Positions 32,108 through 61,385 of a stretch of DNA of 64,000 nucleotides are shown in pieces. Source of the stretch: Polytrichum commune (lineage: Eukaryota; Streptophyta; Polytrichopsida; Polytrichales; Polytrichaceae); the NCBI GenBank assembly GCA_950295325.1, contig OX485803.1, forward strand, positions 15,314,001 to 15,378,000, written 5' to 3'. The notes under the pieces are model-generated. The model was not told the DNA's origin, searched no databases, and worked only from the letters and a program-made list of their open reading frames with translations. The translations under genes were made by a program, and so were the position numbers. Within the stretch, counting starts at the first letter, position 1, and every line of letters starts with the position of its first letter.

Positions 32108-33007
32108 ATGTCTTCCGTCGTGTCTACTTCGTCGTCGTCGTCGACGTCGTCGGTGTCTGGGAAGGCGAGTTCGTGTTTGTGTGCGCCCACGACTCACGCG
32201 GGCTCCTTCCGGTGTCGCTTGCACCGCACCCAGCAGTCGTGGGGGAGGCGTCCGTTGCCGAGCTCAGACGTGGACGAGATGTTCGCCTCCGAAGTGGAGG
32301 CGTCCGTAAAGGACGTCCAGCAGACCACGAAGCAGGCATCCGTTGCGTCGTCGTCGTCGTCGACTTCCCCGTTGCCGTCCCCTCCTGCTCGGCGGACGTC
32401 TCCCAGATCAGCCAACAGGCCAAGGTTATCGGTGACGTTCGCGGAAGAAGCTCAGGTCTCCGTCGGGTGAGTTGCCCTTTCTACCTCTCGCCCTGGGGTT
32501 TCGTCGACGTATCCCACATTGTAGCAGACTCCCTTCCTACAATACAAAGGTGGATGGTTGTGGTTGTGGTTAAACCTCGAGATTGAACAAAACGAATGTT
32601 TTTTTTCCACCCATACGTGTGGTGTGCACGACAAATCCTTGTGGTTGTGGTCAATGGCAGGGTCATATTGTAAATCATAGAAATCTATCATTGGTTTCGG
32701 TCTTGGTCTCCGAGATTATCATCCTTGTTGGCCATAGATTAAAAGTGTTTTCCTCCTCAACTTTGTTTTCCTCAGACTACACGAGTCAGCCGAGTGTAGA
32801 GTGTGGAGTTGATCGGACATTCGACAGGTGAGGAAATTGCGTGTTCTTGTCTGATTGGTCCTCGGTATGTAAATTTGCAGAGGGCAATTTCACAACGTGA
32901 AGATGGCCACTGGGACCGGAGGCAGCTATGCATCCAAGCGGGGTGCGCGACCTGACTTGTTCAGGATGGTGAAGACCGGCACCACCACTACAAACATCTA
33001 CTTATGA
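32108..33007 (+). CDS. Serine-rich plant protein, two exons (32,108-32,466 and 32,881-33,007), 161 aa
   Basis: A true ATG opens a 120-residue frame containing a poly-Ser N-terminus, the plant motif CLCAPTTHAGSFRCRLHR (residues 23-40), QQSWGRRPLPS and a second Ser run (CGT/TCG codons). The frame would stop at 32,470, but that TGA lies inside a consensus donor (TCGG|GTGAGTT). Splicing to 32,881 (acceptor TTTGCAG) keeps phase and adds GGQFHNVKMATGTGGSYASK...GARPDLFRMVKTGTTTTNIYL, which is matched by the paralogue at 60,565-61,385. The C/H pattern CxC...H...C..H could bind metal, but I do not know that it does. Related serine-rich proteins in plants have no settled function. CpG-rich codons contrast with the AT-rich surroundings. 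Confidence 0.82.
32776..32827 (+). other. Candidate 52-bp cassette exon in the serine-rich gene intron
   Basis: The segment is bounded by TTTTCCTCAG and GACAG|GTGAGG, both near consensus, and is followed by a 53-bp mini-intron before exon 2. Its length is not a multiple of three. Inclusion would shift the frame and bring a TGA within 12 codons (LHESAECRVWS), so it would behave as a poison or alternative-end exon. No counterpart was found in the paralogue. Confidence 0.35.
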
Positions 33008-35815
33008 TGGTGACATCCGATTTTCGTGGTAGGGTAAAAACAATTATTTTCCAGAATCTATTGATGTATGATACTTTGGGACAGCGGCACTTCGATGAGG
33101 AGTTTTGTGATTATTTAGTTAACAGTATGCATACCTACAGTCTTGTTCAGTCGGTAAGCATACCTATTTGTATAGATTCCGATGATTTGATTTACTCCGC
33201 CATTCATTCCAACGGCGCGAGAAGAGAGAGACGGCTGCTGCTGCTGCTGTCTTGCACCATTGCAATCTTCAATCAAGTCTTGAGGCGCTGTTCGATTCGA
33301 GGAGGAAGGAAAGGGAAGGGAAGGAAGGGGCTGCCACCACTCGAACCCTAGAGGAAAATGTCTGGGTTTAGGAGTGATGATCATTCGCATGAGCTGGTCG
33401 ATGTCAAGAAGACGATAAGAAAATTTTGTACACAGGGCGAGCATCATGAGTGCTCTTTAGCATGATCCATTTTTTTTTCTGTCTGTCGTGTATCCCTCTA
33501 CAGATTGGCCTGAACACATTCTCAGTGTGTGGAGATGGGCATGGGCATGGGGTTTATTTCAAGTCTTTCACACTCTTGCTCAACTTCCCACAAATCTCTC
33601 AAAGTTTCCTACTCAGAGGTTGAATCAGTCTACTAAACTCCGATCTACAACTGACTCTAGATGGTCTTTCAGCTTACCCTCTCCTCCTCTCACTCACACA
33701 TTGTGTGTCAGGTATGAATTTTTTTCCCTCCGCTATTCTTGCTTGTCAACTAAACCGATGTTCTGGATTGGGTATGTGCACATGCACAAACCGCTAATGG
33801 GTGTAGCTACTGAAATAATTTCTGTCTAAACCCAGTTTCTCATGCAACTACTTGCAACATATGCACAAGCAATTGGATATATGTCCCCAAAAAGGGAAGG
33901 GTGTGGACATCTCTGTGGCGGTTGATTACCGTCGTTAGCCTCGCGACCTGCGTTGGTGAAATTTAGATAGGACTGTCACCATGTACGTATGATTTGAAAA
34001 GTTTGTTGCTTTTTGGATGTGTCTGCAGGTTACCACAGGCGTTCCAATTCGTATAACCTCGGCTTGAATGCGGCAATTACTGTTTCTTCCGAAGCCGGAA
34101 GTTGTTAGAAGGTATGTACTCCCGTTGGCAGTAACTCTAATTTCTTCCTTGCTCGTGACAGATCTTTCTGCATAATGGGCAGACAAGCATGGTTCAAGTC
34201 CATGTGAGATCATCTACGTTGAAGTTGCAAGTGTGTTGCCGCATTTCCTTTTGTGGTCTTCGTGTTAGGGTTGAGGTTTTGCAGCCATTTTGAAAGTAAC
34301 TTAGTGATGTCAAGATGCTGCATCGGGAACTTGTGAGTTTTCATGGTACAGGTTCTTGACTCTTTCGGGGCTTGGGAAGACTAAAAAAGATATGTGGCCC
34401 CATTGTCACATTTGACTCCACAATCCACACATCCCACATGTGTGATCATCAAAATTGTCCTGTTAGCGATTGTCGACTCTAAAGGATTGTCATTTCAAGT
34501 CTCAGAATCGGACTTGAGATGCAAAAGTACAAGCAGGTCAAAGTGAAGATGCTGTTTCTATTTGAAAAATCTATCACATGGAGTTTCCCAAATTTGGCTA
34601 ACTGGAATGGTTAACATGTTTTGAGCACACTAATCCAATCTCACAGGAGTAACACATGTCTCATTACTTAGTGTCCATTCTTACCTTGCCATCATATATC
34701 ATGTTGCCTCTAAACTACAGATGTCCAATAAAGTAGAGTGGCCACACACGGCCCACATACCCTAATATGTCGCCACTCTACTCCGATGACGTTGGCCGCT
34801 TACTGATGGATTGCCATGTGGGCACAACCTCAACAGTAACATGACCTTCAGGTTCAAAAAGGTTTCCTTCTCAGAATCTAGACTAGTTTCTTCCTCCTCG
34901 GTGTCTATTCAGCCTGTGATCCACTTTCTGAATCATGTCCTGCAAAGAGCCACTGTTTGCTTCACGCAAGCAGAATAGTACTACTGCAGGTAGCAGGCCG
35001 GGCCGAGTAATCGCATCCTGATTCTTCATCATGGTGAACTGTGAACGCCAGAAGAATTTACTGAAACCTTTTGATTGTGCATCATGGTGAATTTACGTCA
35101 GGAGAATTTTACTGGAAAACCTTCCTGCCGGATTCAGGTAGTTGAAGTGACAGACCTGGGCAGTATTCCTGGCACCCCAATAACTAGATTTGTTGTACAG
35201 GATTGACGGTGTTGATTATTCTGTCACAAATCGTCCCTCCGAGCATGTGGGAGGCTGGGAGTACAGAGTAACGTTGGAACTCGGAATTCGAGCCCGTCAT
35301 GGGTGGAAGATACTTTTGTGTCATTGAAATTCCAACTTCCAAGGGGGCAGCAGCAGCAGCAGCACCACCACCAAAGGTTTGAAAATGCATTGGAACACGA
35401 GAAGCGTGGAATCTAAGGATATATATATTTATTGATCTGTACTCTCGCAATTCATCCTAAAGATTGGAGATAATTTTATCAGAAAATTTGAAGAGACAAG
35501 TGACAAGGGAAACCTGTTGAGGCCTGTGCCTATGAAATAAGTTCTACCAATTCAAGTTATTCAACAATGTAGAAGAACTTGGGTGGCACTTGATGCCATA
35601 ACCAAACATACATGAAATATATATAAAACACGTACTTTGCCCATGATTAGTCAAACAACAATTTCCATATATCTTATGACAACTTCAGCCTGTCATTTGT
35701 TTCATAACTTGTCATCCTTACCAACGCTTTGGGGATTAGTGCCATTCATGCAAGATGGTGCAGAAAGATTCAACTTCTTATAGGCTTATGGTTGATTCAT
35801 CCCAACTTAATCTCA
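33008..35815. other. Serine-rich gene 3' region and intergenic DNA
   Basis: The first few hundred bases should be the 3' UTR. The frame 33,004-33,351 overlaps it and has no motif. Beyond lies mixed-composition DNA with a (CAG)n tract at 35,347-35,363. No further gene recognised. Confidence 0.35.
35347..35363 (+). repeat. (CAG)n/(CAC)n tract
   Basis: Five to six CAG units followed by four CAC units. Confidence 0.9.
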
Positions 35816-35819
35816 CTAC

Positions 35820-36540
35820 ATTGGGTATGGTATTTAGTGTCACATACACTATTTGCGAAGGGCCTAAACAACACTTAAAATGATATTTAGTGTCATCCAA
35901 ATGTCAATCATCTATGACAATATTTCATCACAAGTTGTTGATGAGAGAAGACATGGTTTTGGCCAATGAATGAACTCATCCATCATCCATGACAATATTT
36001 GTTCACTTATTCATGAGTTGTCATCCAAAAAATTACCATAGTGACATAAATTACCATATGACACTAAATACATTGGATATTTGGTGTAGATGCCTAGAGG
36101 TCTCAAAGTGTCACACCCGCTAATTGTCAATAGATTCCATTCATCAACATAATATGCTCTTTAAAGTGAAAAAATACCTACATTATGACATTTAGAGTAG
36201 CATAGTGGGATCATGTAGATGACAGTCTTGTGTTTTAGTATACAATGGGAAGATCTTTTTGAGCGTACTAATGGCAAGAGGGAGATATTCTTGAGCATGC
36301 TAATGGCAAGTGTCATTTGTGTACACTTTAGTCAATTGTAGACCATTGTGTAACATAGGCATACACCTCATAAAACTATTGAACATACTCGTGCTAAGAT
36401 ATTAGTAAGCGCACTTGAACGCCAAGTGTCATGAGACAACACTTATAGTGAAGTTGTTAATCATCAGTGTATCCTAGCATACGCCTCAAAATAGGTAAGT
36501 GACATTGTTACTCATATGACACTTAATACCATAAATGGTG
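35820..36540. repeat. Composite of family T-related repeats
   Basis: Several blocks carry GGTATTTAGTGTCAC and its inverse, plus ACAATATTTCATCA, GGTTTTGGCCA(A/G)TG and CATCCATCATCCATGA. The same blocks occur at 42,000-42,180, and the GTAGATGCCTAGAGGTCTCA block recurs inverted near 56,730. Confidence 0.5.
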
Positions 36541-36639
36541 TTGCTCGTAATATGGTGTCTTTGATTCTAATCTTGTGATTAACTTTGCTGGACACATACA
36601 TTCTAATTCATTGAAGGTTTTCAACGTTTTCACCTTCAA

Positions 36640-36900
36640 CTTACAATTGCATTGCCATTGTTATAATATTTAGTGTCACTACTACTTGGAGTATTGCAAT
36701 GCTATAACTTGTTATTGTTAAGGTAAGTTTTGACCAAGTAAAAATGTTAATGTTCTATAATGTTTAAACAACCAATTTGACCCTTGTTGGTAAAAAAAAA
36801 ATGAGATCTACAATAAATAATTATAGCATTGCGTGATTCCAAATAGTAAGTGACACTAAATATCATAAAAACGGTGTAGACCACCATATGCTATATACAC
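36640..36900. repeat. Foldback element, family T
   Basis: ATATTTAGTGTCACTACTAC, a TTGGAGTATTGCAATGCTAT arm at the left, and ATAGCATTGCGTGATTCCAA with AGTGACACTAAATAT at the right. About 220-260 bp with matched inverted arms. Confidence 0.65.
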
Positions 36901-38235
36901 AAATAAGCGTACTAAGGGTGAGTCTCCAAGTAGGATGCTCGCCCATTAGATTCTAGATAATATTGGGTCATAGATGTTCTCATGTAGATAAGCACAAGTG
37001 GCCTACTAGAATGTGAGGGTTGTGGACATGGGCCGCTAGACTTTCATGCGCCTACTGAAGCACCGTTTAACCTACAAATGCCGGTCATTGAAGGATAAAA
37101 GACCGCTCTTGGGAGGAAGAGGTTTTAATCTGGAGGAGGTTAGTAGATGGGCCCGGATTCAAGAAGATGAAAATAACTAGCCAACACACACGAACTCTAC
37201 CCCGCATGTCTCCATCTACATTTGGACGAGTTTGTCCTTGTTCCCACTACAATGTGGTGGGCGAGTGGCCTACATACAAACACACCCTAAACCCACCACA
37301 TTTCTTTCTTTCTTTCTTTCTTTCTTTCTTTGGCCACGGAGAACCTACGTGTCCCTTGAGTGCCGTACCATTTGGATAGCTTTTTATATCCAAAGCTTCA
37401 CATCAAAATACGAAGTCACCGGCACCAATCATTGTAGAGTACATTCCACGATAAGGCAAAGCGCAAGCCGTATGCCACCCGTATTCCCATTTTTTCGTAA
37501 ATATTTGGGCTCTTGACGAAGAGTCCCACATCAGACTCAGCATGATAGCTTTTTGAGCCTTGCCCCCAGAGCACTGCCCAGTACTGTGAGGTGCTTCCTG
37601 GGTTCCTCCTTTACGACGCCGGACAATAATGTCCACGTGGGATTTGGATGCGTCTCAAGCAATGTAAGGCTCCCATGTGGCAATGTACGAAGAATACCAA
37701 TGTACCAAGAGCCGAAGTAGCAAGCACTCTACAGATCACGGAATTAGGTTGTTAGGCTCGGCCAAGGATCTGTGGTGTCCACGTAAACTCTACCATTACG
37801 AAGGTGAAAATATGGAGATCTACATACTTCATAGCCTAGAAACGATTATTCTTAAAGGATTCGACTCTGGAAATTGCATCAGACACGTCGAAGTAGTCCA
37901 GTGAAGTCGAACCGGAATGAATTGGCCCTTGACCTGGAGAAGGAGGGGGGTTTGTTGTTCTTATGACCCCTTCATCCACGATGGATAAAGGGGGTTATAG
38001 CAAGAACAATCATGTTGCAAGTTGGAGGCCGGTCTAGTTTAGACTGACCTCGCTAGACCAATGCGGGGCCGTCTGTTGCTATTTCCGGAGTCCGAGCCTC
38101 TCCAAATAATCATTTCCAAGCTACAAAAACACAGATCTCCGCATCAAATCGTCACGGTCCTAGTGGATGGATGCGTATACGTAGACACCACAACTCCCTC
38201 GGGCCCGAGCCATTAGTCAGGCTTCACCAGTCATA
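36901..38235. other. Intergenic DNA with a (TTTC)n microsatellite
   Basis: Chance frames only; (TTTC)n at 37,301-37,331. No recognised gene. Confidence 0.35.
37301..37331 (+). repeat. (TTTC)n microsatellite
   Basis: Seven to eight TTTC units. Confidence 0.95.
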
Positions 38236-38240
38236 CCCTC

Positions 38241-38308
38241 CCCACACATACTGGTGGCGGGGGGCAGTGAACGGACGAAGTCCGTTCGCCGCCACCAGCA
38301 TGTGTGGG
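38241..38308. repeat. GC-rich double-stem hairpin
   Basis: An outer 20-bp stem (CCCACACATACTGGTGGCGG with its inverse at 38,289-38,308, one mismatch) encloses an inner perfect 8-bp stem GAACGGAC/GTCCGTTC with loop GAA. Confidence 0.9.
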
Positions 38309-38310
38309 CC

Positions 38311-38622
38311 AGAGTTCGGGAAGTTTTTGAAGCCTCAGTGGCTAATTGCCGGTAGTTGCTACGAAGGGTCGGATTTTTTCCAATTTACATCGGTAAGAGC
38401 CGGTCTTCTGTAAAATCAATCGGCCAATTGCCTATATTTTCATATTTTCATTGGCCAATATCCGATTAAATGGAATTCATATCGGCACTAATTGTTTAAA
38501 AAAATGTATGAAAAGTTATTAGAAATCATTTCTTAGTACAAAATCTTGAATAAGTGAAATGAAAGGCATGTTCGAAATTTTAAATTTGAAGAGTTAATAT
38601 CCTTGGCAGGAATTGAACCCGT
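38311..38622 (-). repeat. Inverted partial copy of element Q
   Basis: Colinear with the reverse complement of 10,960-11,270, from TTCGGGAAGTTTTTGAAGCC to GGAATTGAACC (the inverted B-box-like string). Truncated at that point. Confidence 0.75.
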
Positions 38623-38624
38623 AA

Positions 38625-38778
38625 CTTACCATTTTTAATTTTTAATTTTTTAGGCAAACAAAGTCAAGAATTTCCAAAAAGTTTAGGTAGATTTGTAAAT
38701 AATTATTTTCTGCCTAAGATGCTATTAACCTATGGTAGGACTTCAACCAATTATGCCCAAAAATCTCCCCGAACACGG
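38625..38778 (-). repeat. Short repeat S, copy 1
   Basis: On the minus strand it carries GGTTGAAGTCCT, a weak B-box-like string, and ends CTTGACTTTGTTTGCC followed by an AAAAAATTAAAAATTAAAAA tail. SINE-like, but no convincing A box. Confidence 0.4.
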
Positions 38779-38799
38779 GCCACTAAACTCAAACCAATG

Positions 38800-38930
38800 A
38801 TCGGGGAGAACCGGCAGTTAGTTACAAATGAACCGGTTGAGTTTGAGAAATAAACGGTTGAAGTTGAAGACTACAGGAAAATTACCGATCATTTAAGAGG
38901 AATCTATAGAATCTATAGAATATCATCGAG
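38800..38930 (+). repeat. Element P, partial copy
   Basis: CGGGGAGAACCGGCAGTTAG, followed by the P body through AAGAGGAATCTATAGAAT. Confidence 0.6.
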
Positions 38931-38969
38931 TTCTAGGCTTTAGACTTTAAATTACTTGTGTGGCTAGCT

Positions 38970-39118
38970 AACCCAATTTTAATTTTTAATTTTTTGAGCA
39001 AACAAAGTCAAGAACTGCCTAGGTGTTAAGGCACACTTGGTAATAATTATTTTAAGCCTAAGCTTCTAGTAACCTACGGTAGGATTTCAACCAATATGCC
39101 CAAAAATTTCCCCGAACA
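38970..39118 (-). repeat. Short repeat S, copy 2
   Basis: Same order as copy 1 (GGTTGAAATCCTACC at one end, the AAAAATTAAAAATTAAAA tail at the other). Both copies lie in the same orientation beside P/Q-type ends (CCCCGAACACGGGCC). Confidence 0.4.
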
Positions 39119-39277
39119 CGGGCCAATGAACTCAAACGGCCGTTGTCACTCTGGCGCACTTTAGTAAGTTTCTGGTCCTAAACCCGAAAACTTACCTGGG
39201 CTACCTGCGAACGGCCAAATATTAAGGGCCTTGCGCCCAGTCGCTGGTGGGTCAACTTTTTGGACGAAAAGTCCCTC

Positions 39278-39318
39278 CCTGCTGGTGGGGGCCTTCCACT
39301 GCCTCGCCCACCAGCAGG
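39278..39318. repeat. Perfect 12-bp GC hairpin
   Basis: CCTGCTGGTGGG (39,278-39,289) pairs with CCCACCAGCAGG (39,307-39,318). The core GCTGGTGG resembles the stem at 38,241, so the two may be diverged versions of one foldback. Confidence 0.85.
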
Positions 39319-39479
39319 TGTGGGCAGGCCCTCAGTTATTAGCAGGTGCAACACACAAGCTATACCGGTAGGTCCTCCTCTCCACTACACCATATCATGG
39401 ACCCGCCGGCGTGTCAGGCTCAATCACTCCCTAATTTTTAAGAGGCCTCCACGAGCAGCCCTTCTCACTGGTCCCTTTT

Positions 39480-40180
39480 AAGTTGTTTCGTTTGTGTCTC
39501 CGATCCCACGCGGGGCCCACCGCCACGTGGACCCCGCCGCCGCCGCCGCCTCCTCCTTCAACTCCCTCCTTAGAAGACGCGGCACCCCCGTTCCCATTGG
39601 CGGGGGCGGGGCTTTGAGCGAGCGCCTGATATTTTGGCGAGCTTGGCTAGGGTTAGGGCCTCGTCGAGCTTCAATGATGGCGTTTTCCATGGTCCGTCTT
39701 CCACCAATTCACGGCCCTTCCATCCACACGAGGCTCATCACCCGCCTGGGCCTCCGCTTGCGGCCACTGTGGTGGGGGAGGAAGACACCCACTTCTGTGG
39801 TGCGCTTCCAAAGCGACACGGGGATGCAGATAAGGTTGTGTGTGTTGTGTGTGTTGTGTGTGTTGTGTGTATGCTGGCTTGTGAGGAAATCATCAATTTG
39901 TCTGAACTCTTTTCTTTTCAACTATTGGCTGTCAACGGCTCCAAAGAGAGTCAAATGCCTTCAACTTCACGGGAACAATCGAACGGGGGAGGGCCCGGCC
40001 GCTACGAAGTTACAGATGAACCGGTTGAGTTTGATAGCCGGGCCGCACCGGCCGGTTCTAGCCCAGTCAGCCGGTGGGCCCCGCACTGGGAGGTAGTGGG
40101 TTGGGCAGGCTTGGTGTGGTCCTGGGCCAACCATCTCTCCAGTTGGGCCTTGGATAGAGATTGAGGGTTCTTGCGTGACA
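39480..40180 (+). other. GC-rich island with unassigned reading frames
   Basis: CpG-rich sequence in AT-rich surroundings, with long frames at 39,494-40,096 and 39,634-40,164. An ATG pair at 39,674 opens MMAFSMVRLPPIHG. The other frame reads ATVVGEEDTHFCGALPKRHG before AAG|GTTGTG. Either might be a first exon, but I recognise neither, and no second exon is apparent. A 9-bp minisatellite follows at once. It could equally be a promoter relic or GC-rich repeat. Confidence 0.3.
39833..39871 (+). repeat. 9-bp minisatellite
   Basis: About four units of TTGTGTGTG. Confidence 0.85.
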
Positions 40181-40445
40181 CTTAAAAAGAGTTTAGCATT
40201 TGATTAAAAAAAAATATGACAAAATTCAGCCAAGTGGGCCGGCCGGGTCTGTCATGTGTTGTCGGCAACAAGCTCAACTTGCCCGGCCGGAGGCAGTGGG
40301 CATGCACCTTGGTTGGGTGCAGGGGGAGGGTGCCTTGCTGCCAGCCAGTTGAGCCACTGGCTCGGCTCTGGCTGTAGTGTCTTGGCTAGATGCAGAGCCC
40401 CTCGGACCGCCAGGGTTGGCTGGCCTTGGTGTGGCTAGGGTATGA

Positions 40446-40610
40446 CAAGTAACTGGTTGAAGTTCAAGGCTTCAGGAAGATTAGCCACCATTTGAAAGGG
40501 GTTTTAGAGAATATACCTCGAATTAAGGAAGAATAATAAAAAGGTGTTAGCATGTGACTGGTTGGACTTGGTAGTGCTAGGATCTTGACTAATTATGCCC
40601 GACCATTGTG
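40446..40610 (+). repeat. Element P copy carrying the unoccupied MITE-B site
   Basis: ACTGGTTGAAGTTCAAGGCT ... GACTGGTTGGACTTGGTAGT, then GCTAGGATCTTGACTAATTA. The TAGGATCTTGA string corresponds to the MITE-B insertion point of the 9.4-kb copy. Confidence 0.65.
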
Positions 40611-41690
40611 TGGGGAGAGGGGGATTTTTATCGGATACAAGTGCACCTCTCATTCATCCATGTGAAAGTGTGTAGTATGCAACTAGTGTGTTTACTATTT
40701 TAAAGTCAATTTTGACACCAAAGTTAGGTTCAAAGACCCCATATTAGTATTCACCAAGTTATTTGAGATGCATTGGTCACATATTTATAGGGGTCAGGTT
40801 ATTATGTTGGATGAGAGAGGGTATGCTATCTCTCTCTCACACACACCTCGTAGTGTAGCTTTCCTTGTACTCCTCATTATTCAAATATTTCATCCAAGAA
40901 AATTAATTCATGAATGATATTACATGATAGTACACTATATCCTCTAAGGATGTTGTGGAATACTTGACTCCACTTTTTCTTCTCTATGATGTGCACCTCA
41001 CTATTTCAAGACTTAAAAAAAAATTAAAAATTAAAACATAAATGACAACCAAACCAACTGTCTCTTATCCACATATTTAGAAGCTACTCTTTTGAGAGCC
41101 AATTCCAAACTCTATGTTTCAATGACACATATCCCACTCACATTATTTTAGTTCCCACGCTAAAGAGAAGGAATGTAGTTAAGATAGACCTCCATCAAAT
41201 TCACCCCTAACAAAAGCTTAAGATGCATCTCATGATCAATGTACATAATAATCATAAAATCTATCATTGTGGATACATAAGTAGGAAATCTCCGACCCCT
41301 ACTTTTGAATATGGTGTGGTATTGTGGGATCTAAATGTAGGCATACTTTATCTATTTGACCATCTAATAAAAAGCAACGATTGGTAAGATGACCATGCGA
41401 TCCCCGTAGTGAAGAGAACTGGCCGTTGCTATGCCCCCAAGCTTTATGTTCCCATAGGGTTTCATTATCATCATGGGATCACTCACTCAAACTTTCTCCG
41501 ACATTGACGCACAAGACGTAGTCTCAACTACGACAACAACACCAACAACAATGACGTCAAGAGCAAGAGCAAGAGGAAAGAGAAAGGAAACCGTCCACCA
41601 AGACTTCAAAGTTGTCCGGTTCTACTAATCGACACGTCTTTGGCATGGACGTGACTACATTGAATTGTCCTATTTACTGTGGGTTGTCAT
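40611..41690. other. Intergenic DNA, nothing recognised
   Basis: AT-rich, no supported gene or repeat. Confidence 0.3.
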
Positions 41691-42548: not shown

Positions 42549-42597
<49 letters not shown>

Positions 42598-47085: not shown

Positions 47086-47089
47086 ACAT

Positions 47090-47230: not shown

Positions 47231-48969
47231 ACTAGGGGAGGGTTAACAATGAATGTGGAGTATTAATAAAGGTGATACGAAATTTCTTTACGTTGTGAAA
47301 CTAGAGCCACCAAAAGATCCAAGGAGTATTGTTCATCCTGGCACTGTTCACAAAATACTATTCATAGCAACACTATTCATTGAAAGTACCGCCACTTGGT
47401 ATTATTCCCTCAAAGTATTGGCACTTGGCACTATTCACTGACAAGCATGTGTTTCCCTATGATTGTTTTTATCACTCTACGAACACCGTAGAGCACGCAT
47501 TCATTTTCTTGAAATCTACGATAACCGAAAATGTAATCCTGAATTTAGTCTCACTTACTGTAGTAAGAAATTCCAGCCCTCAATGACTTTGAGATTTGGC
47601 TAAATAGTGCGTGCTTTGGGAATTAACACCACCCTCACTAATTGGGATAATTAGTGTAGCGGTAGATTCTCCCCGTTCATTAGTTAAGGTGTTTATTGGG
47701 TACGGCCCACACGTCCTTCAGTAGGCTGTTAGTTCTATCCATCTAGTAGGCAAAGGAAGAGTGTTGGAGTTGTGGATAGCCTAGTTTCTCAAACAAGGTA
47801 CTACCGTACTAGACTAGTTGGACTAGGCTTGCCACTACGACAATAAAGCCAATTGCATTTGTTGTGTGCCATGGGTTGCGGTTGATGGGGTGGATTGTAA
47901 GGTACGTGTGCCTAAAAGCAACACTTCCAACAAGTTTTAATCTTTTATTGGTTTTAAAGAAGTCGGTAGAGTTTCATAACATGCTTGCAACAAGTATGGA
48001 AGATGTGTGAAGAGTGCATAGATTTTTTTTAAAGAATAAAGTAGTTTATATGCATCCTACAAACATCTGCAATGTCATTTTGGGGTTTAGGCATTTTTAT
48101 TGTCGAGTAGGGAAGTCCACTCTCACATACATTTGTATTGTGTACCTTCCTTTATAACCTCTACTTATGAATCAACCCTAGCAAGCATTAGATGTAACCA
48201 ACCTAGATTAGACTAAACTACAGTAGCTTTTGGTAAAAGGATGGCAATGCTTTTAGACGCATGTACCTGATCTCAACTTTGACCTAATCCATGGTCTTCA
48301 CTCTAATCTAAACTTCGTTGAAATAATCAAATTTCAAAACTACTCTCTAGATTTTCGAAATGCCACACTAGTTCCACATACCCTCAAGGTGAGCAGGACC
48401 TGATTCGATTTCTCATCTCAAATGAAAATATATACAAATTCAAAGCATATACCAAATTCCTTTGCAATTGAACATGGCTTCTCTATCCACATGCGCGGAG
48501 TAGCCAAAATGCAGGGTTCGCAAATCGGGGTTGTATTTCACAGGGAACATGGAATAGTAACCATCTAAGAGCCTAATCATGTTTTAAGGTTTACTAATGA
48601 CTGCATAACAACTTTATGGTAGAGTCCACAAGCCATTTGGTAAATTGTTGCTACTCTTCCATCCGTTAGGGTGATGAAGATGTAGATAGCATAGATTCTC
48701 AAAACAAAGTCAATACTACAACTACTAGGCCTTGAACTTGCTATAATCATAAACTAGGCTTGGTGACGTAGTAACAAGTTACAACAAAGTCAATTGAATG
48801 CGTAAAGTGTTATTAAGTTGAGGATGGAGTGAACTGCAAGAACTTTCACACCTGAACTCCCATGTAAAATTCGAAATGACCAATTTCAAAAAAGTTGTCT
48901 TTGGAGTTCGAAATATTGCCCGCAATACTTCCGTATACAATTTCAAGAGCCTAAATTGGTTGTGGGTTT
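47231..48969. other. Intergenic DNA, nothing recognised
   Basis: AT-rich with weak internal repetition only (the pair CGCCACTTGGTATTATTCCC / GGCACTTGGCACTATTCACT near 47,400). No gene. Confidence 0.3.
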
Positions 48970-48972
48970 TTA

Positions 48973-49471
48973 GGGCCACTTCACACACGAGACTGAGAGC
49001 CCATGACCATTACACTTCAAGCACTCTCATTGGAGGAAAAGGTGGATCTCTCCAAGTTCGCTTCACACTACGCTTGAGGGACCAACAAAGTATGTGAATG
49101 CAAGATGGATGTAAAGTCTACATGGATTCCTACGTGGCATCGAATGGATCATATTTCATGGTCACTTGGATTATTTTCAAAAATCATCTCTTGGAGGTAA
49201 GCCTAATACAAAACCAAGAGACCATGACACTCTGAACGCTCACCACCATTGGTTCATTCTAATTTATCATGTGTGAGAACACGCATGAATAGAAAGTCAT
49301 TGAAATAGCATTTGGTTGAGGGCGCGGTCACATATGACTTCACACTACACTTGAGGGTCCGTGACCACACTACATGATTTTGGAGGTGTATTGGGGACGG
49401 CCTTTCGACACTTCCTTTTGGGCTCTCACAATTTCATGGTCACGGCTCTTGGCTTGTGTGTGAAGTGGCCT
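48973..49471 (-). mobile_element. PIF/Harbinger-like MITE, family A, copy 3
   Basis: 499 bp in the same orientation as copy 2. GGGCCACTTCACACACGAG at the left, GTGTGTGAAGTGGCCT at the right. TTA is duplicated at 48,970-48,972 and 49,472-49,474. Confidence 0.8.
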
Positions 49472-49539
49472 TTACTAACGGCAGTCCTCTTGTGGTTCCC
49501 ACAAGCCATTCAGTAGATTGTTGTTGCTCTTGTTGCTCT

Positions 49540-50869: not shown

Positions 50870-52245
50870 AAGGTTGGTCCCTCTTTTATTTATTGGGTAG
50901 AATCATCCGTTTTCATCTCCAATCCAAGACATCGTTTTTGCAAGGCTTAGAAACCTTTGTTTGATCAGAGTCGGAAACCGAAAGAAGAGGGACTGACCTT
51001 GAAATCCAACTCCTCGACATTGGACACATGTCAAGGCCGAAATTCTTTTACCTTGGCTCACCAAACTCCATTTCCGAAACCGGCGTTTTTGAACATGTGT
51101 GGCATGCCCTTCAACAACCAAAGCAAGCCAATCGAATGTGTGGAGTGCCATGGGGTGTAAATTGTGTGTGTGTGTGAGGGGGGCTAGAGTTAGGCGGGCG
51201 TCAAGTGTTGGTGCAAGGAAGGGGCCGCAACTCCCTCTTGTATTTACTAGGTAGAATCATCCGTTTCCATCTCCGATTCAAGACATCGTTCCTGCAAGGC
51301 TTAAAAATCTCCGTTTCCGATTGGAGTCGGAAACCAACAGAAGAGGGACCAGCCTTGAAACCCAGCTCCTCAAAGTTAGCCACATGTCAAGGCCGAAACT
51401 CTTTTACCTTGGCTTACCAAACTCCGTTTTCGAGCGTGTGTGGCTTCCCTTCGGCAAGTGAGTCAATCAAAGGTGTGGAGTGGCATGGGTGTGGATTGTG
51501 GGGGGGTTGGAGTTAGGCGGGCGTCAAGTGTTAGTGCAAGGAAGGGGCCGCAACTCCCTCTTGTATTTACTCGGTAGAATCATCCGTTTCCATCTCTGAT
51601 CCAAGACATCGTTCCTGCAAGGCTTAAAAACCTCCGTTTCCAATCGGAGTCAGAAACCGACGGTTTAAACCAACAGAAGAGGGACCAACCTTGAAACCCA
51701 GCTCCTCGAAGTTAGCCACATGTCAAGGCCGAAACTCTTTTACCTTGGCTTACCAAACTCCGTTTTCGAGCGCGTGTGGCCTCCCCTTCGGCAAGTGAGC
51801 CAATGAAAGGTGTGGAGTGGCATGGGTGTGGATTGTGGGGGGGTTGGAGTTAGGCAGGAGTCAAGTGTTGGTGCAAGGAAGGGGCCGCAACTCCCTCTTG
51901 TATTTACTGGGTAGAATCATCCGTTTCCATCTCCGATCCAAGACATCGTTCCTGCAAGGCTTAAAAACCTCCGATTCCCATCAGAGTCAGAAACCGACGG
52001 TTTACACCAACATAAGAGGGACCAGCCTTGAAACCCAGCTCCTCGAAGTTAGCCACATGTCAAGGCCAAAACTCTTTTACCTTGGCTTACCGAACTCCGT
52101 TTTCGAGCGTGTGTGGCCTCCCCTTCGGCAAGCGAGCCAATGAAAGGTGTGGAGTGGCATGGGTGTGGATTGTGGGGGGGCTGGAGTTAGGCGGCCGCCA
52201 AGTGTTGGTGCAAGGAAGGGCCGCAACTGGCAGCTAGTAAAAGGA
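50870..52245 (+). repeat. Tandem satellite, four units of ~323-337 bp plus a partial
   Basis: The anchor GTGCAAGGAAGG recurs at 51,211, 51,534, 51,871 and 52,208, giving spacings of 323, 337 and 337. Each unit holds GTAGAATCATCCGTTT, CAAGACATCGTTCCTGCAAG, CGGAAACC, AAACCCAGCTCCTCGAAGTT and CCTTGGCTTACCAAACTCCG. Units 3 and 4 carry a ~14-bp insertion (GACGGTTTAAACC type) absent from unit 2. The most distal unit (from 50,870) is the most diverged. Open frames across it are repeat-borne, not genes. Confidence 0.85.
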
Positions 52246-52525: not shown

Positions 52526-53400
52526 TACTTTATCCACTTTGCTATCCATCCCCTAGGATGTAATGTAGTAGGTGGCAAGATTCTCACTTCTTACTATTAG
52601 GGAAAAAGTGTGGTCCAATGCATTGTTGGACCGGTGTTTAGGTGTATGAATTGCATCAATAAGCAATGTTAATTATAATGGTATCAAAGAAGTTGCCTGC
52701 GGGTATTGGTATTGCAAAACCGTTCATTGTTGACATATGATGGGTATCGTTAGGCGAGAGAATCTTTGTATACTGGAGTTATCATTTGGGTCAGTGCCAT
52801 TCTGAGCCATATTGATACGAGGGCGATTTTAGCTAAGAGGTGAAGGTTCTTTGCATGGTATATAAACCCCAATGGGTGTTTTTTTAATATAGAAATATAA
52901 AGATTTGAAATACCATTTTTTATACCCTGAGATGGTATGAAAAATGGTGAAATCCTCATTATAGATGCATGAGTGATATCAAATGAAGATGATTCCAATC
53001 CAGCATTAGTTAAGATAACAACATGGTTGGAAAATTGACATGGCCATGATCCAAAAGAGCACGAACTTGTAATAAGCACATTTAATCTTCTTTTTACTTT
53101 TTCTTTGCCGAATCAGCACGACAATTCTATTAAGGCTTTATTCCAAGGCCACTTTTTCCATCCATTCTAAAGGAGGTATGCAACAAGATTCTCACTTATT
53201 ACACTAGTGGAATACATGGCTTTGAACAACACACTTGTAAATCGACAAAAGCGTGGTTCTATACAATACAATTTTGTGTTGTTTTGGACCACGTCGTGTC
53301 AATTTGACGACCTTGTTGTTTGGACCATGTTTTATAGTAGTGTTATAAGTGAGAATCTTGCCTACCTCCTTTGGGAATGATGGATAGTAAAGTGGGTATC
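52526..53400. mobile_element. Foldback element X with ~80-bp inverted ends
   Basis: The left end (CCACTTTGCTATCCATC...GGTGGCAAGATTCTCACTT) and the inverted right end (CCCACTTTACTATCCATCA...GGTAGGCAAGATTCTCACTT) are parallel to TGGTCCAA. A second left-type end at 53,157-53,215 lies inside, so the element is partly duplicated or nested. Confidence 0.55.
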
Positions 53401-53519
53401 TATGAAGCTTGGTTTATTTGTTGCCATCTGTTGGTTGGGATCAAAGTGATCTTGGCATCGGAATATAAGCTAAGCTACATAGGTGTTCGCTTTTCTATCC
53501 ATAGATTCGTTGCCTACAT

Positions 53520-53640
53520 CGGCAACAAGAATCTCACTTATTACACTACACCATTTATGGTATTTTTCGTGTCACTTAATATTTGGAGTTACGTTGTGCC
53601 ATAACATTTCCTATAGATCTCATTTTTTTAACCAACAAAG
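53520..53640. repeat. Partial family T element
   Basis: ACACCATTTATGGTATTTTT, TGTCACTTAATATTTGGAGT, ATTTTTTTAACCAACAAAGG. Confidence 0.5.
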
Positions 53641-55165
53641 GTCAAATTGGTTGAAAAGGAGGTCATGATCATCTTGTCTAAAGGCTCAACCACATAAACT
53701 TGCGATTGTGAGCTTGAGGGGTCAAGGTGAGAGAATATGGGCCTTTACATATGTCATAAATGATGGAGCTTCGGTTCCTCCTTTTATAAGGAAGATTGAT
53801 TTTCAAGGTTAAGCCCAAACTTAAACTTGTAGTCATCGGACTTGAAAAGTCTACAAGCTTGTGTTTGATGTCATGAATTCCATCTCCCCCAAAAAGCTTG
53901 ATTTTGAACATTGAGACAATATTGATCCAACATTTTAGACATATGTAAGGTCTCGAACTTGGGGTTTGCACCTTTCATAACATGTATGAGTATATGCGAG
54001 TGCACAAAAAGGATATTTATTTGAACTTTAATGTACTATGTATACATATGCTACACAAATTATAACTCGTAGTTATGTACTTGTATCGAGGACCTCCAGA
54101 AAATATATAATTTTTTGTACATGTATGGTTCGGTCACTAGACTTTATGGGATAAGTATTTAATGTTGAATAATTTTCTCATTTCCTTTTCTCATCCATGT
54201 ATTTATGGACGAGGCAATATTAGGGTTTTGGAAAGGGTGGTTAACCTGAGAACGAGGCCACTTCTTGCTTAGGGTTGCAAGAGGAATGGCCGGCACTTCT
54301 TTCTGGCCCTTCTTTGTGGTTGATGTAGGTGGTTTATGCGGGTTGTTGTTGTAGGTGCTTGTGGGTGATGGATGCCTTTGTTAGATCATGGGCGACATTG
54401 AAATTGTGAAGGTGCTTATTCCCAAGTTGGTTTTCTCTCAATCGGTTTCATATCATTAGTAAACCTCCGATGTGTATAACAAATCGGTGGTGAGTAATAC
54501 AAGGTGATTTAGCCGCCGCTTTGATGATATTTGGGTCACTTGCCCTCACAGAAGTGAAACTACACCCACCATCCTTCATAATGAGGAGTGTTATCCACCA
54601 AGCTATGACACACTTCATTTTTGTGCCTGAGGTGGGAAATTAAGAGACGCCAAGTTGGGCAAATTAGGAGGCAGCATGTGGCTGTGAGGTGCTGACCAAC
54701 TTGTATTGTGGGTATTCTATAATGAAAAAAACAATTTAGCAACATTTTATCTTACATGTGACCGTTTTAAAGGCACGACGCAACCAATATTCGCATTAAA
54801 CTTGGTTTTTATTGGCAAATGACCCATATAGAATCTACTAATGATGTTGTCCACTTACACAACATTGAAAGACAAAAGATTCCCCCCCCCTTCGCCGTAA
54901 CACTGCATTGGGAAGAAGTACAAAATCCTTGACTACGGAGCCTAGATGAACACCTTCCTCAACTCCGATTTCAATAAGCCCAAATTCTTTGGTCATGATT
55001 CGTAATTGCTAACTTGCTCAACTTCTAATGCTCGAATCCATTGACTAAATGATTCCACAAAGCTGGAGATATCCACATTAACCTCATCTACCTTACCAAC
55101 AAATTCAGCTTGAAAAACTCGGGTATAACATTGTCGTTGATTAGAATGAAACAGTTGATAGCAGC
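53641..55165. other. Intergenic DNA, nothing recognised
   Basis: AT-rich with a C run near 54,884. No supported feature. Confidence 0.3.
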
Positions 55166-55168
55166 TAA

Positions 55169-55472
55169 GGGGCTTACCCCACTACAGGCCCTCAAATTTC
55201 GGTGGTGGCAGCGATTGGTTGGGTGCAACTGCCGCTACCCTAATGGGTACCACACAGACGGGAGATAAGAACAACGTGGCTTTGAAAAGTGGAGTGCTTC
55301 CTCACGATGAACTGCCGTTGGATTTTCCCTGGAAGTTTGTGTGGTGCTAAACTGCCAGTAGTGTGATACATGACCACTGGCAAAGTGATGAGATGTAAGC
55401 ATTTGCTTTGAAAAGTTGCCGGAACTATAGTCCACATCACGGAACCCCAATTGCCATAATGTGGTAAGCCCC
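55169..55472. mobile_element. PIF/Harbinger-like MITE, family E (304 bp)
   Basis: GGGGCTTACCCCACTA and, inverted, GGGGCTTACCACATTA form the termini. TAA is duplicated at 55,166-55,168 and 55,473-55,475. The interior is GC-richer and non-coding. Confidence 0.75.
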
Positions 55473-55475
55473 TAA

Positions 55476-56515
55476 GTAACGTTATGTCGGGTCTCCCTGC
55501 TCATTGCTCAAAATTATACCGGACCACAGTAATAGGTGCAAAAAGTGTGGCTAGGCAGCCAAACTAGGGCAAATCTCCCTTTCATGAATGACTCCCTTTT
55601 ACTTGCATGCAGGGCTAGTAAATTAAAAGAGGCCATGATGCACCATTGATCAGCGCCTGTCTAAACTTGTGTTGACTTCCTGCAACATAGATGGGGTGGC
55701 TTGGCCAAATTTAGTGTTCAAATTTAATGGTACTGTCCTACAAAGTAGTAGCGTTTACTAGCATATGTGTACTAAGGTAGAGGGTGCTTAAACCAACACT
55801 TTAAGCTATTGCACATACATGTCGCACATTACATGGTTGATATAAAATAATATATATTTATATTAGCCTTTGTTCTAAACATAGGTAAAAAGAAATAAAA
55901 AATATTTTTAGCCTCAATTAGATATTTGATGAATATTTAAAGTCAAAACCACTAGTTTCCTTGAACCAATATATAGGTCATGTGTATGACGACCTTGGAT
56001 ATGATGAGGGCCCCCACTCTCATTGCCTAGAACCAACACAACATAGCTGGGTACTGGACCCAAACTATATCAAAGCCCAAGTAGTAATGATACGCAAAGC
56101 CACATGGCCACCTCCATGATCCCACCTACTGTAGTTCGCTTGCAAAACCATCACCTTGCGTCTCGGGAACCAAGCCCCTTGCATCCTGGGAAATGACCCT
56201 TTGTGCTTTGTGGACTTACCTCCTTGGCTTTGTGAATAGAATGGCTAGAAAAGGCATTGACAAGCCACCCTAATCCCACCTTGAACCAACTCGAGATAGA
56301 GTGAAGCCCGTTACCTACCCTACATGAAGGTAGTGAAGGCCGATATGAGGTGGCACCACTAATGGCACCTGAAAACCGTCGCTCCGTGGGCCCGGACACT
56401 CCTATATCAGGGAAACGGTTCAAGGTAATAAAGTGTTGGCAATTGGGAGGCGTTCATAGGTGTTGGTTTTGGGTGGGATGTTGGTTTTAGCACCCTCTAC
56501 TTTAGCAACTTACAA
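55476..56515. other. Intergenic DNA, nothing recognised
   Basis: Chance frames (for example 56,151-56,423, minus) without motif. Confidence 0.3.
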
Positions 56516-56519
56516 GCGA

Positions 56520-56790
56520 GTACACCGTTTATGGTATTTAGTGTGTTGCATGTCTATTAGTGTCACTCACCTTAGTTAGTGTCACCTCATGACAATTGGC
56601 ATTCAAGTTCACGTCCTAATATCTTGGCTCTATAAATAATCTTTCACTTAAAGAAGTTACTTATGTTGATGAATGGTATCATAGTGATAATTAGCCATGT
56701 GACACTTTGAGACTTCTAGGCATCTAGTTTAGGCCCTTTACAAATATTGTACGTGACATGAAATACCATAAAGAATGTAGCACAATAGGA
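56520..56790. repeat. Family T-related foldback
   Basis: ACACCGTTTATGGTATTTAG at the left and GAAATACCATAAAGAATGTA at the right are inverted. It includes CTTTGAGACTTCTAGGCATC, shared in inverse with 36,090. Confidence 0.55.
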
Positions 56791-56854
56791 GCCTTAGATG
56801 TGTGAAGAGGGATGTAGAATTCAAATATGTCAAAGTTTGCAGGACTACAACGTC

Positions 56855-57060
56855 TATGGTGTTGAGTTTCACTTACTATTTGGAACTACACAATGCTAGA
56901 ACTTCTTACTACATATTTCAGTTTTTACCAACAAAGTGTAAATATACACCATAAATGACTTACCTTGATAGAAAATTTACATTCCTGGAGCAAAAAGTTA
57001 TAACACTGCGTAACCCCGCAAAGTAAGTGACACTAACTACCATAAACGGTGTAGCGCAAT
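56855..57060. repeat. Foldback element, family T
   Basis: GAGTTTCACTTACTATTTGG, AACTACACAATGCTA at the left and TAACACTGCGTAACCCCGCA, AGTAAGTGACACTAACTACC at the right are inverted arms. The centre has ACCAACAAAG. Confidence 0.65.
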
Positions 57061-57489
57061 GGTTGTTTGATTTTTGTCAAGGGAGATAAGCAACTTATAC
57101 CATGCCCACACTAGGGCCAAGCGCTGCTCCTTGGCAACAACATGAGTCCCTCTTGCCCGGGAAAGTTCATCACTTTCCGAGACTTACTGTTACCAATAAG
57201 GATATTCGTCCTACTCACAGAAACGTCACCAAATGCAATGTACTGTAGTTTCGCCGGTTGCAGATGAAGACAAGAACTCCTGTCAAGATGGAAACCCTCC
57301 TATTGGTGTGGGCCAGTCGTTAGTCGTAGTGTGAGCATGATATTAGCCTCTTTGACAATGGAAAGGGGGCAGGAAGTTCAAGTGGACGTCGGTGTGGAGT
57401 AAGATCCCAGAACTTTATCTTCATCTCCAAGAATGGCCCTGCTGGGAATCTCTTTATCCACTTTCCTTTGCTGAATATTTGTTGAAGAA

Positions 57490-57553
57490 ACACGTGGACC
57501 CAGGCTACTTATCCAACTACCCCCATAGTTGGAGCTGTCGTACATATATATAG
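57490..57553 (+). promoter_or_regulatory. Possible promoter (ACGTG core and TATATATA)
   Basis: ACACGTGG near 57,490 and ACATATATATAG near 57,543 are spaced like an upstream element and a TATA box for a + strand transcript. It is considered only because coding-like frames follow at 58,273 and 59,292. Confidence 0.2.
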
Positions 57554-58272
57554 TCGCAAGCATGACCCATAATCCATTATTCCCTGTATTAGGTGTTCGG
57601 CTCTTGTGAATAGACTATCTTTATGACTTTGGTTTGCCTTGTGGAGCTTCGGGTTTTTGTGTTTTTGTTTGTAAATTTCTTTTTAACATCGAATGGGAGT
57701 TGCATATATAAATTGATAAGAACGTAAACAAAGGTATGTGGGTGTTAATTGGTTCATTTTCCATGTTGTCCAACTTCTACCCATTAGATTTACACAATAA
57801 AAACTTGTGTTGTGTTAGCAAATGTACGATGAAACATTGTAAAAATTGGATTGAAAATTGGACCTCCCTTGACTAAGTTATGCTTATCGGAAGTGCATGT
57901 TTGTTGATTTCTTAAATGAGTACATAGGTCCTCCCATTTGTGTTCACTACTGAGTGTAGAGTAGTTATGAATATTTGAAGACATAATCCAATCCCTTTTG
58001 AACATGTGTCTTTATGACGTTTGCTCTTTAATCCTCACCAAACCACATATCAATCAAATATAGGGGTCTGATTAAGAAAACGAGTCACTTGAGACATGTC
58101 TACCTTACACCCCCAAGAGACAAGCCATAAATTCCTTGCAAGGTAGAAGAAATGCAAGAGGGAGAGTGGGGCTTTATTATACTGACTTAGATTTAGAAAG
58201 ATAACATTAGTTCCTAGACTGAGTAAAATAATATGAAACTGGGATGGCTTATGAAACTAAACCTACATCAAG

Positions 58273-58551
58273 ATGGTGTCAAAAAGTCCAATTCCTTACA
58301 TCATCGGAGTGTCGGAGTGCCGTAGCCTCCGTGAGATAGAAACTACTATCAACTTGATGAATCGTTTGGAAGGACTTTTGACACTGCATAGTACAACATG
58401 CTCAAAAAATAGGGAAGGAAATTCATGTGTAATGGAGTTGTGGAGGGGGCAAAAGTGTGCCTCATTTTCAAATCTCAGTCATGCAAAGTTGATTGGTGAC
58501 CTCAAGTTTGGAATTGTTACTGGACGCTTGGGATATTTGGACTCTAAATGA
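58273..58551 (+). CDS. Hypothetical 92-residue frame, unrecognised
   Basis: A true ATG opens MVSKSPIPYIIGVSECRSLR, then EIETTINLMNRLEGLLTLHS and a Cys-containing C-terminal half ending at TGA. The region lacks recognisable repeats, unlike most of this window, and codon use is unremarkable. I do not recognise a family. It may be one exon of a gene extending to about 59,438, or a chance frame. Confidence 0.25.
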   Translation: MVSKSPIPYIIGVSECRSLREIETTINLMNRLEGLLTLHSTTCSKNREGNSCVMELWRGQKCASFSNLSHAKLIGDLKFGIVTGRLGYLDSK

Positions 58552-59291
58552 TCAATGCAAACTTTCGGTGGACCGGTGGCAACGACAGCATGCAGCAACA
58601 CTGATACGACAAGGTGACGAGAAACTTACACAGATTACAAAGTGCATGGAGAAAGCCATACCCAACCAAATTGGTCGCATGTTGAGTAAAAACACTTGAG
58701 AAGGTCTACTGTACATACCTTGTAACCTCGTGAAGGAGCCTGCAGGAGACATAAAATCAGGAACCAAAAAGGTCTGACATGTGCTGAAGATGAATCTGGC
58801 ATTTAATTATTCATGTCAGTTATTAGTAAGGATAATGCGTGGTGAATCCCAAGCTGGATGGGTACTGGCCCAAAGAGTGTGATCATCATCAGTCTCGCAA
58901 AGAATCGTATTAGATCAAGTGACGAGTGCATGATTGCAGGATTTCGGGTTGGGCATGTCATTTTGTCTTGCATACTTTCCAGGGTTTATGGTCAACAAAG
59001 GATAACAAGTCTATTTGTCAATTAATGTCCAATATGAGTCTTCCACCGTGGAGTGGTTTTGGATTCTTGAGACTTCAAGATTATTATTCCCTCCCTTATC
59101 ACCGTCATCACAAGTTTTAAACATCAAAGAGAAGTTACATACTCCTTGCCTCACCCAATTTGCAGTGCAAGTTAATAGAGTGGTAATACACAACCAAAAC
59201 TCTGCATTTTAACCCTCCTAGGCAAGCCTGCATCCGGGATCGGCAGAGGCAATCATCACAAGAGTTTGCAAGGATTAGGGGAATTAGGTGA

Positions 59292-59438
59292 ACTTTCGAT
59301 TCTGAATGCATAATCAGAGCAAATATACGTGAGAATTGCAAGTTTGAATTTGATCTTTCATGGATTCGAACCATGCTTATCTGCCCATTGTGCAGGAAGA
59401 TCTTGGATGGTGATGATGATGTTGATGATGACTCTTGA
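59292..59438 (+). other. Possible terminal exon with RING-like end (CPLCRKIL)
   Basis: After GGGGAATTAG a frame runs FDSECIIRANIRENCKFEFD, LSWIRTMLICPLCRKIL, then an acidic tail and TGA at 59,436. W-x6-CPLCR is the usual end of a RING finger, but the preceding Cys/His ligands are not in canonical order and no upstream exon completes the domain. The same bases contain a perfect tRNA T-arm-like palindrome on the minus strand (59,359-59,375), so chance is a real possibility. Confidence 0.22.
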
Positions 59439-59439
59439 T

Positions 59440-60560
59440 TAATCCCAACATTTCAAACTGGAAGAAAAAAATTCTCACCTTGAATCGATACCTAGGACGT
59501 AGTAGTTGCCAAGCATAATGTTAACTTTGACTCCGATTCTGGATCGGTGCCACCATTTTGCTTTTTCGAGAAAACAAGCAGTTAACAGGGACACACGGAG
59601 GGCCTGCAAGTGGAGAAGAATCAGTGGCACATGACGAGACATCAGGAGTTATTGTCGGTCGGTTGGGAGAGTTCGGAGATTATCCAGGAACCCCAAATTG
59701 CGGTGTTTGCATGTCCCCAGTGGCAAATATTTGCAGTTCCTAACCTCATCTCTCTAGAAGATTTCTATATTTCCGCAACGAAGACCACCTCAACCAATGA
59801 GTAGAAGACATGTAGATATTCAAGGAAACGGTGGGCGCAGGGGCCGGGTAAGTTATGGGGCGGTTAATTACCTCGACCGAGTTATAAACATCAACATATC
59901 GGCATGCCATTGATGGTTGTTAAATGTCACAGTTGCTGACTGATACATGCACCTTGTAATTACAGGCGCCAACACAACCACCTGGAACTACACATACAAA
60001 TACGGTGAAGTGAAAAAAATGTGAAATCATGTTGATGATGAAGGCCCATCGCTCCTTGTTTTTTGTGCACAATTTGGTCAAGCATGGTATCCAAAAGCTC
60101 AGACCTGTGATTCAAGCTCAAACAGACACAGAAATCCATCCCAGGAAATTGCTGTGAGTAGTGTTTTGTGAATTGTGAACAATGCTGCTTGACTCAAATG
60201 TACATCATCATCATCATCATGCTAAGAGCATAAATGTTGCTCGCACTATGTACAAAATTCCTTCGTCCACCTCGGGACGATAGATATTGACAAAATACTC
60301 ATCTGACCAGAACAATATCCTAAGATGCCTGAATTAATCCTTCCTGCTTGTGTGACGTTGTCAAGGAGTGGAGGGGTTAAGCAATCGATACTGGTGCAGC
60401 TTCTATACAAAAGGTTACGCGGTTGTTTCTTTCCGGAGTTTGGCAGCGAGAAAATCATCACTAATTACAGAATGAGGCAAGGCGCTGAGTGGTTATAATA
60501 ATATCACACATAGTAGCCTGCGGGGTATGTTACCTACTCGAACAAAAATTTTAAGGCAAT
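59440..60560. other. 3' flank of the minus-strand serine-rich gene
   Basis: Probably includes its 3' UTR. A (CAT)n run at about 60,205-60,220 and the 59,558-59,743 frame show no motif. Confidence 0.3.
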
Positions 60561-60564
60561 CTTG

Positions 60565-61385
60565 TCACATGCAGATGTCGGTTGCCGAATTGCCTGTCTT
60601 GAGCATCCGGAAGACTGAGCTAGGTCGTGCACCGGCTTGATAGCTACCTCCGGTTCCGGTGGCCATCTTCATGCCTTGAATTTGCTCTCTGTAATGTACA
60701 GGAAATCGGTAACCAGTCAGATTCAACAGTTTAAAACATCAACTTGCAAGTGGAAAAGAAAAATACTCCCCGTAATAGAATCATCCTCTAACTCAACACG
60801 ACATTCAGTAGGGAGTTGATCGAATTGCATACAACACCTTCCATATTCAGTAAGCTTTCGGTGCATGCTTGGAGGTAGTGTGAGGTTTGAAAAACGAGAT
60901 AGGTTGATGTTCGTTCAAATTCAAACACTACCTTGGAGCATGGCACCATCACATGATGCATATTAGAATTTACACTGGAATGATGATCAGGAGGAGTTCA
61001 TTAGGATGATGCAAACGCACTCTTGATGAGACTTGTCTGCGTTGGGATGATTTGCGTCCGAAGAGTCTTCTTGGGAGAAAGTGACCGTGTGCTTGAGCCG
61101 AGAGGTGCGTCGGGGTGAGGTGGACATGGAAGTAGGTGACGTGGCGGGAGAAACTGACGAAGCTCGGCTTGAACTCGAGCAGCTCGATAGATGATCCCTA
61201 CCCTCCACCGAAGCTTCAACTTCCGCTGCGAAATCGGTCGCGTCCTCCACCGACGAAGACCGAGATGGCAGAGGTCTCCGCCCCCACGATTGCTGCGGTC
61301 GGTGCAAACGGCACCGGAAAGAGCCCGCGTGCGAGGTCGGGGCACATAAACATGCCATCTTCGGAGAAGTCGACGGCGAAGACAT
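60565..61385 (-). CDS. Serine-rich plant protein, paralogue, two exons (61,385-61,021 and 60,688-60,565), 162 aa
   Basis: ATG at 61,385. Residues 12-29 are CLCAPTSHAGSFRCRLHR, followed by QQSWGRRPLPS. Then come acidic and Ser-rich stretches, SPRRTSRLKHTVTF and an unspliced stop at 60,987. Exon 2 is placed by homology. After ATTACAG it encodes EQIQGMKMATGTGGSYQAGA, then RPSSVFRMLKTGNSATDICM, with the same 22-nt lead to KMATG as the paralogue. The donor that fits the required phase is AAGA|GTGCGT (61,020), usable but not ideal; AA|GTCTCATC also fits. The intron (61,020-60,689) holds a truncated family F foldback. Product length matches the 161-residue paralogue. Function unknown; the two probably arose by duplication, now lying ~28 kb apart in opposite orientation. 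Confidence 0.75.
60777..60965 (+). mobile_element. Truncated family F foldback MITE (intron of the serine-rich paralogue)
   Basis: The left end AGAATCATCCTCTAACTCAA and the interior TTCAGTAAGCTTTCGGTGCA, TGCTTGGAGGTAGTG, CAAACACTACCTTGGAGCAT match copies 1-4 in the PX gene introns. The right terminal arm is missing. Confidence 0.7.

Follow-up and report, generated by a model that had tools for sequence, protein, structure and literature searches.

Gene organization of the two loci

The window analyzed here, a stretch of 64,000 nucleotides from Polytrichum commune, contains two inverted paralogues spaced about 29 kb apart, which are named A (starting at 32108, forward strand) and B (starting at 61385, reverse strand). 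The ORF listing of the window includes a single-exon open reading frame at each locus, of 120 amino acids in A (32108-32470, +) and of 132 amino acids in B (61385-60987, -), as originally predicted. That prediction also held that a block carrying KMATGTGGSY, GARP, and FRM.KTG lies downstream of both genes and that a phase-2 junction would extend them to 161 and 162 residues. The three peptides were indeed found in both A and B, encoded by exon 2 as the tail of each protein. Joining 32108-32466 to 32881-33007 in A gave an open frame of 161 amino acids, and joining 61385-61021 to 60688-60565 in B gave an open frame of 162 amino acids, the length of exon 1 being 2 modulo 3 in both genes. The two-exon model comprises the following features:

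32108..32466, + strand: exon 1 of A, coding, 119 codons plus 2 nt
32467..32880, + strand: intron of A, 414 nt, GTGAGT...TTTGCAG, with a CTGAT branch-point-like site near the 3' end
32881..33007, + strand: coding part of exon 2 of A, stop codon TGA at 33005-33007
61021..61385, - strand: exon 1 of B, coding, 121 codons plus 2 nt
60689..61020, - strand: intron of B, 332 nt, weak donor GTGCGT and acceptor ATTACAG, with a CTGAC branch-point-like site
60565..60688, - strand: coding part of exon 2 of B, stop codon TGA at 60567-60565

The G+C content was 64% (A) and 58% (B) in exon 1, 45% (A) and 40% (B) in the intron, and 54% in exon 2 of both genes. All conservation measures given below are pairwise, being derived from the two sequences A and B.

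Splice sites and the proposed join to exon 1

Splice sites were scored with approximate matrices. The donor of A (CGG/GTGAGT) ranked first among 32 GT sites, and that of B (AGA/GTGCGT) was weak, with a score of -2.04 and rank 3 among 18 GT sites. The acceptors, described beforehand as good, ranked second of 20 in A and first of 15 in B on the same approximate matrices. Openness by itself says little in favor of any one pair, as 32 of 640 donor-acceptor pairs in A and 27 of 270 in B were both open and in frame. Among these in-frame open pairs, the proposed pair of A had the highest score by a clear margin (8.49 vs. 6.44), while that of B came first narrowly (-1.31 vs. -1.35), and the runner-up pair of B would remove most of exon 1. 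The predicted join to exon 1 is thus firm in A, while in B it rests largely on homology because of the weak donor and the margin of 0.04 over the next pair.

The alignment of A and B runs from exon 2 upstream across both acceptors as far as TCTGA(T/C)TGGT. This element looks like a branch point, which is only suggested, as CTGAY is common (117 occurrences on both strands of the window). In the frame of exon 2, a stop codon begins 11 nt (A) and 53 nt (B) before the exon. The bodies of the two introns were unalike, with an alignment score of 13, a value that 78 of 1000 random pieces also attained.

The ATG within the conserved block begins 22 nt after the acceptor AG in both genes, which agrees with the spacing first reported, and this in-frame ATG at matching places could suggest that the block is a separate small ORF (MATGTGGSY...) translated from its own start downstream of a single-exon gene. 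Such an arrangement is very unlikely, given that the similarity continues upstream of the ATG across the acceptor, that the introns have no block in common, and that the promoter-like block common to the loci (described below) lies upstream of exon 1.

Reading on from exon 1 into the intron, an in-frame TGA occurs at intron nucleotides 2-4 in A, where it overlaps the donor, and at nucleotides 32-34 in B. Both forms of the protein might be made, splicing adding the tail and intron retention, under regulation and perhaps mainly in B, yielding the proteins of 120 and 132 residues. The poor score of the B donor would fit this extension of the two-exon model, as would the position of the TGA at or near the donor, through which retention would give a cleanly truncated protein in A and B. 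We consider it unlikely, however, since the intron bodies differ and so do the extra residues gained by read-through in A and B, so that there is no sign of selection for the short form.

The intron of B also contains a palindromic repeat, called MITE-like here, which takes up over half of the intron:

60773..60953, - strand: MITE-like palindromic repeat, positions 68-248 of the intron of B

In a blastn search, the intron of B had 10 matches outside itself, all of them at window positions 1195-2908 (E 9e-25 to 4e-4).

Conservation and coding character of exon 2

When the 700 nt past the exon-1 stop codons of A and B were compared, the local alignment score was 54; the maximum was 17 among 2000 random pieces of the window and 20 among 500 dinucleotide shuffles. 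The exon-2 peptide of either gene retrieved the other by tblastn of the window at an E of about 6e-10, and no third copy of exon 2 was seen in the window, the next match having an E of 0.45 (A as query) or 2.2 (B as query). In the protein alignment, 61 of 107 residues were identical in exon 1 and 23 of 40 in exon 2; two of these 40 pairs sit at a gap, where the junction codons of A are matched to exon 1 of B.

Nei-Gojobori estimates for the 40 aligned codons of exon 2 were dS 0.77 and dN 0.33, and those for exon 1 were dS 1.98, which is near saturation, and dN 0.42. Differences at codon positions 1, 2, and 3 numbered 15, 7, and 16 in exon 2 and 44, 27, and 64 in exon 1. A frame test was carried out on a hand-set alignment of exon 2, comprising 39 codon pairs including the stop and leaving aside the two junction codons of A. 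The meaning of the codon was kept in 24 of the 39 pairs vs. 18.9 expected, and at least 24 were obtained in 114 of 10000 random placements of the 32 differences. Synonymous codon changes numbered seven in the coding frame vs. one and two in the other frames.

The similarity could alternatively reflect a conserved noncoding element or a repeat lying downstream of two single-exon genes, as the frame test alone stands at about 1% and the loci have in common other conserved blocks that are probably noncoding. We regard this as highly improbable, even more so than a separate small ORF. The two gaps in exon 2 (6 and 3 nt) have lengths divisible by three, and second codon positions had the fewest differences; the coding frame stays open until stop codons that coincide in position in A and B, while the other two are interrupted, one in both copies and one in B alone. 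Furthermore, none of the 2000 random pieces reached the observed score, and the lack of a third copy by tblastn in the window speaks against a repeat. The evidence for a coding exon 2 can be called good but not overwhelming, because the stretch is short and just two sequences were available; the frame test is moderate. Taken with the open phase-2 joins and an alignment far above chance, this coding pattern bears out the proposal of a second exon common to both paralogues.

Conserved blocks flanking both genes

Comparison of the loci revealed four islands in common, namely a promoter-like block, exon 1, exon 2, and a 3' block of 45 nt; these islands, together with the repeat in the intron of B, are new here. 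The flanking blocks are located as follows:

31766..31877, + strand: promoter-like block of A, 112 nt, with the TATA-like CCCCATAAAG at 31789, 319 nt before the ATG
61659..61768, - strand: promoter-like block of B, 110 nt, with CCCCATAAAG beginning at 61744, 359 nt before the ATG
33422..33466, + strand: conserved 3' block of A, 45 nt, TTTTGTACA followed by GAGCA/TGCTC arms around 7 nt
60216..60259, - strand: conserved 3' block of B, 44 nt, with the same layout as in A

The promoter-like block, in which CCCCATAAAG is invariant, ends 230 nt (A) and 273 nt (B) before the ATG, and its score of 43 between A and B was reached by none of 1000 random pieces (maximum 19). Between this block and the ATG the sequence has diverged (score 9 for the 5' UTRs), and upstream of it no clear similarity of A and B was found (score 11), both of these scores standing without a null of their own. 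The 3' block begins 414 nt (A) and 305 nt (B) past the stop codon of exon 2, and its score of 29 was reached by none of 2000 random pieces (maximum 18).

The layout of the 3' block is AATTTTGTACA.AG.GCGAGCA, followed by seven positions that vary and lie at or near the loop, then TGCTC and (T)TTAGCATGAT. The pattern of GAGCA, 7 nt, and TGCTC, which is its own reverse complement, has two matches per strand in the window, one in each 3' block. A hairpin was considered and is not claimed, as the minimum-energy fold uses the GAGCA/TGCTC stem in B but not in A. Within the block, TGTACATA of B fits the Pumilio-type site UGUANAUA, and the corresponding TGTACACA of A does not. The 3' block is probably part of the 3' UTR or a 3'-end signal.

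The islands would most simply mark both ends of one transcription unit containing exon 2, and exon 2 appears to sit within one duplicated unit. As the conserved blocks bracket both exons upstream and downstream, they strengthen the two-exon reading. It is therefore highly probable, judging from the sequence comparison, that A and B arose by an old inverted duplication of one complete plant gene with two exons, a phase-2 intron, and a coding exon 2. The four-island pattern also illustrates how the extent of an entire transcription unit can be traced from two paralogues of the same window, independently of RNA data.

Features of the predicted proteins

Serine accounts for 33 of 161 residues in A and 34 of 162 in B. 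Both proteins have an N-terminal CxCx4Hx5CxxH motif, of the type C.C.PT.H.GSFRC, starting at residue 23 in A and 12 in B, by which zinc could be bound. Three SP pairs occupy the same alignment columns of the serine-rich stretch in A and B (residues 87, 91, and 98 of A) and could be used by a proline-directed kinase. A VTF motif is also present in both proteins. The consensus of the PP1-binding RVxF motif is [HKR][ACHKMNQRSTV]V[CHKNQRST][FW], which is fitted by HTVTF of B, while LSVTF of A is without a basic or His residue at the first position. The product would be a small, serine-rich, probably disordered protein.

Searches of the family databases gave little. Spliced A had no match in Pfam or NCBIfam, spliced B matched in Pfam Period_C alone, with an E of 1.1 that is below the family cut-off, and the four unspliced exon peptides and ORFs had no match in Pfam. 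Against PDB, spliced A gave one match (E 1.8) and a two-row A/B profile none, and Rfam gave no match over the whole window at gathering scores. In contig collections of prokaryotes (A as query) and viruses (B as query), 595 and 20 pattern matches were obtained, respectively, of which none was confirmed; these two results say nothing about plants. A literature search for peptide strings of the proteins returned no match.

Relation to known plant proteins

By description only, A and B can be likened to the land-plant "serine-rich protein-related" proteins such as Arabidopsis AT5G25280, which are likewise small and rich in serine. This family presumably has an N-terminal Cys/His motif resembling C.C.PT.H.GSFRC of A and B, and we take AT5G25280 to be a member of the same family as the two genes. 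In all likelihood the two genes are an ordinary two-exon pair of this kind, and the outcome is a refinement of gene models inside a seemingly known plant family, not biology of a novel type. The term "serine-rich protein-like" was in none of the general moss and liverwort papers listed.

In the excerpts available from published studies, AT5G25280 is listed as a "gene with unknown functions" among the heat-dependent pollen changes differing in cngc16 (PMC6057101), is 3.15-fold up in esr1-1 (PMC4436139), is named in an RNA-binding-proteome study among the most up-regulated proteins without a known RNA-binding role (PMC6460520), and appears in a pathogen-response table (PMC2664814). For the SP sites, the Arabidopsis MAPK substrates PRP, PH1, and PH2 (At3g23170, At4g14450, and At1g04330), which are small, rich in Ser and Pro, and share a conserved [S/T]P phosphosite (PMC5594048, in excerpt), offer a possible analogy of how such sites might act in A and B, drawn by description and not by sequence comparison. 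That source describes a basic MAPK docking site and found orthologues in dicots but no monocot orthologue (PMC5594048), and its excerpted text makes no mention of a Cys/His motif. A mangrove serine-rich protein of 223 amino acids, likened to a peanut protein (PMC3910099), was set aside, as the excerpted source shows no link to the family of A and B.

Proposed expression and role of the tail

Under the two-exon model, transcription would start near the common TATA-like promoter block, and the pre-mRNA would lose one phase-2 intron of 332-414 nt. Loss of the intron would remove the in-frame TGA just inside it and add about 41 C-terminal residues, and the message would end in a 3' UTR with the conserved 45-nt block. 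The product would carry the N-terminal CxCx4Hx5CxxH, the three SP sites, the VTF motif, and the tail of exon 2. As a tentative guess, the protein might be a regulatory or adaptor protein controlled by phosphorylation, with the exon-2 tail as its binding peptide.

If transcripts agree, the gene models of the pair would be extended by a conserved tail of about 40 residues, which makes up a quarter of the protein. This tail, possibly the partner-binding part, would be absent from constructs confined to exon 1. The interest of the pair is modest unless a wider comparison reveals an ancient, unrecorded module. A bolder version, to which we give little credence, is that exon 2 encodes a C-terminal binding module that is old in land plants, belongs to the serine-rich family, and is largely missing from gene models and databases; retention of one intron, with an in-frame stop at or just after the donor, would control its attachment.

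Other features of the window

At the left end of the window, a PX domain ORF (382-1068, +; E 3.3e-6) and an ORF with the first part of a Rubicon homology domain (3071-3358, +; E 5.2e-14) are probably exons of one gene, and several palindromic MITE-like repeats at 1195-2908 adjoin them. A tandem array with a 337-bp unit occupies 51173-52228 (3.2 copies, 93% matches). A dispersed repeat of about 500 bp occurs in both orientations at 11494-11996, 25065-25569, 48969-49475, and 63863-63998, the last copy being cut by the end of the window, and its copies are 87-95% alike among the matches listed.
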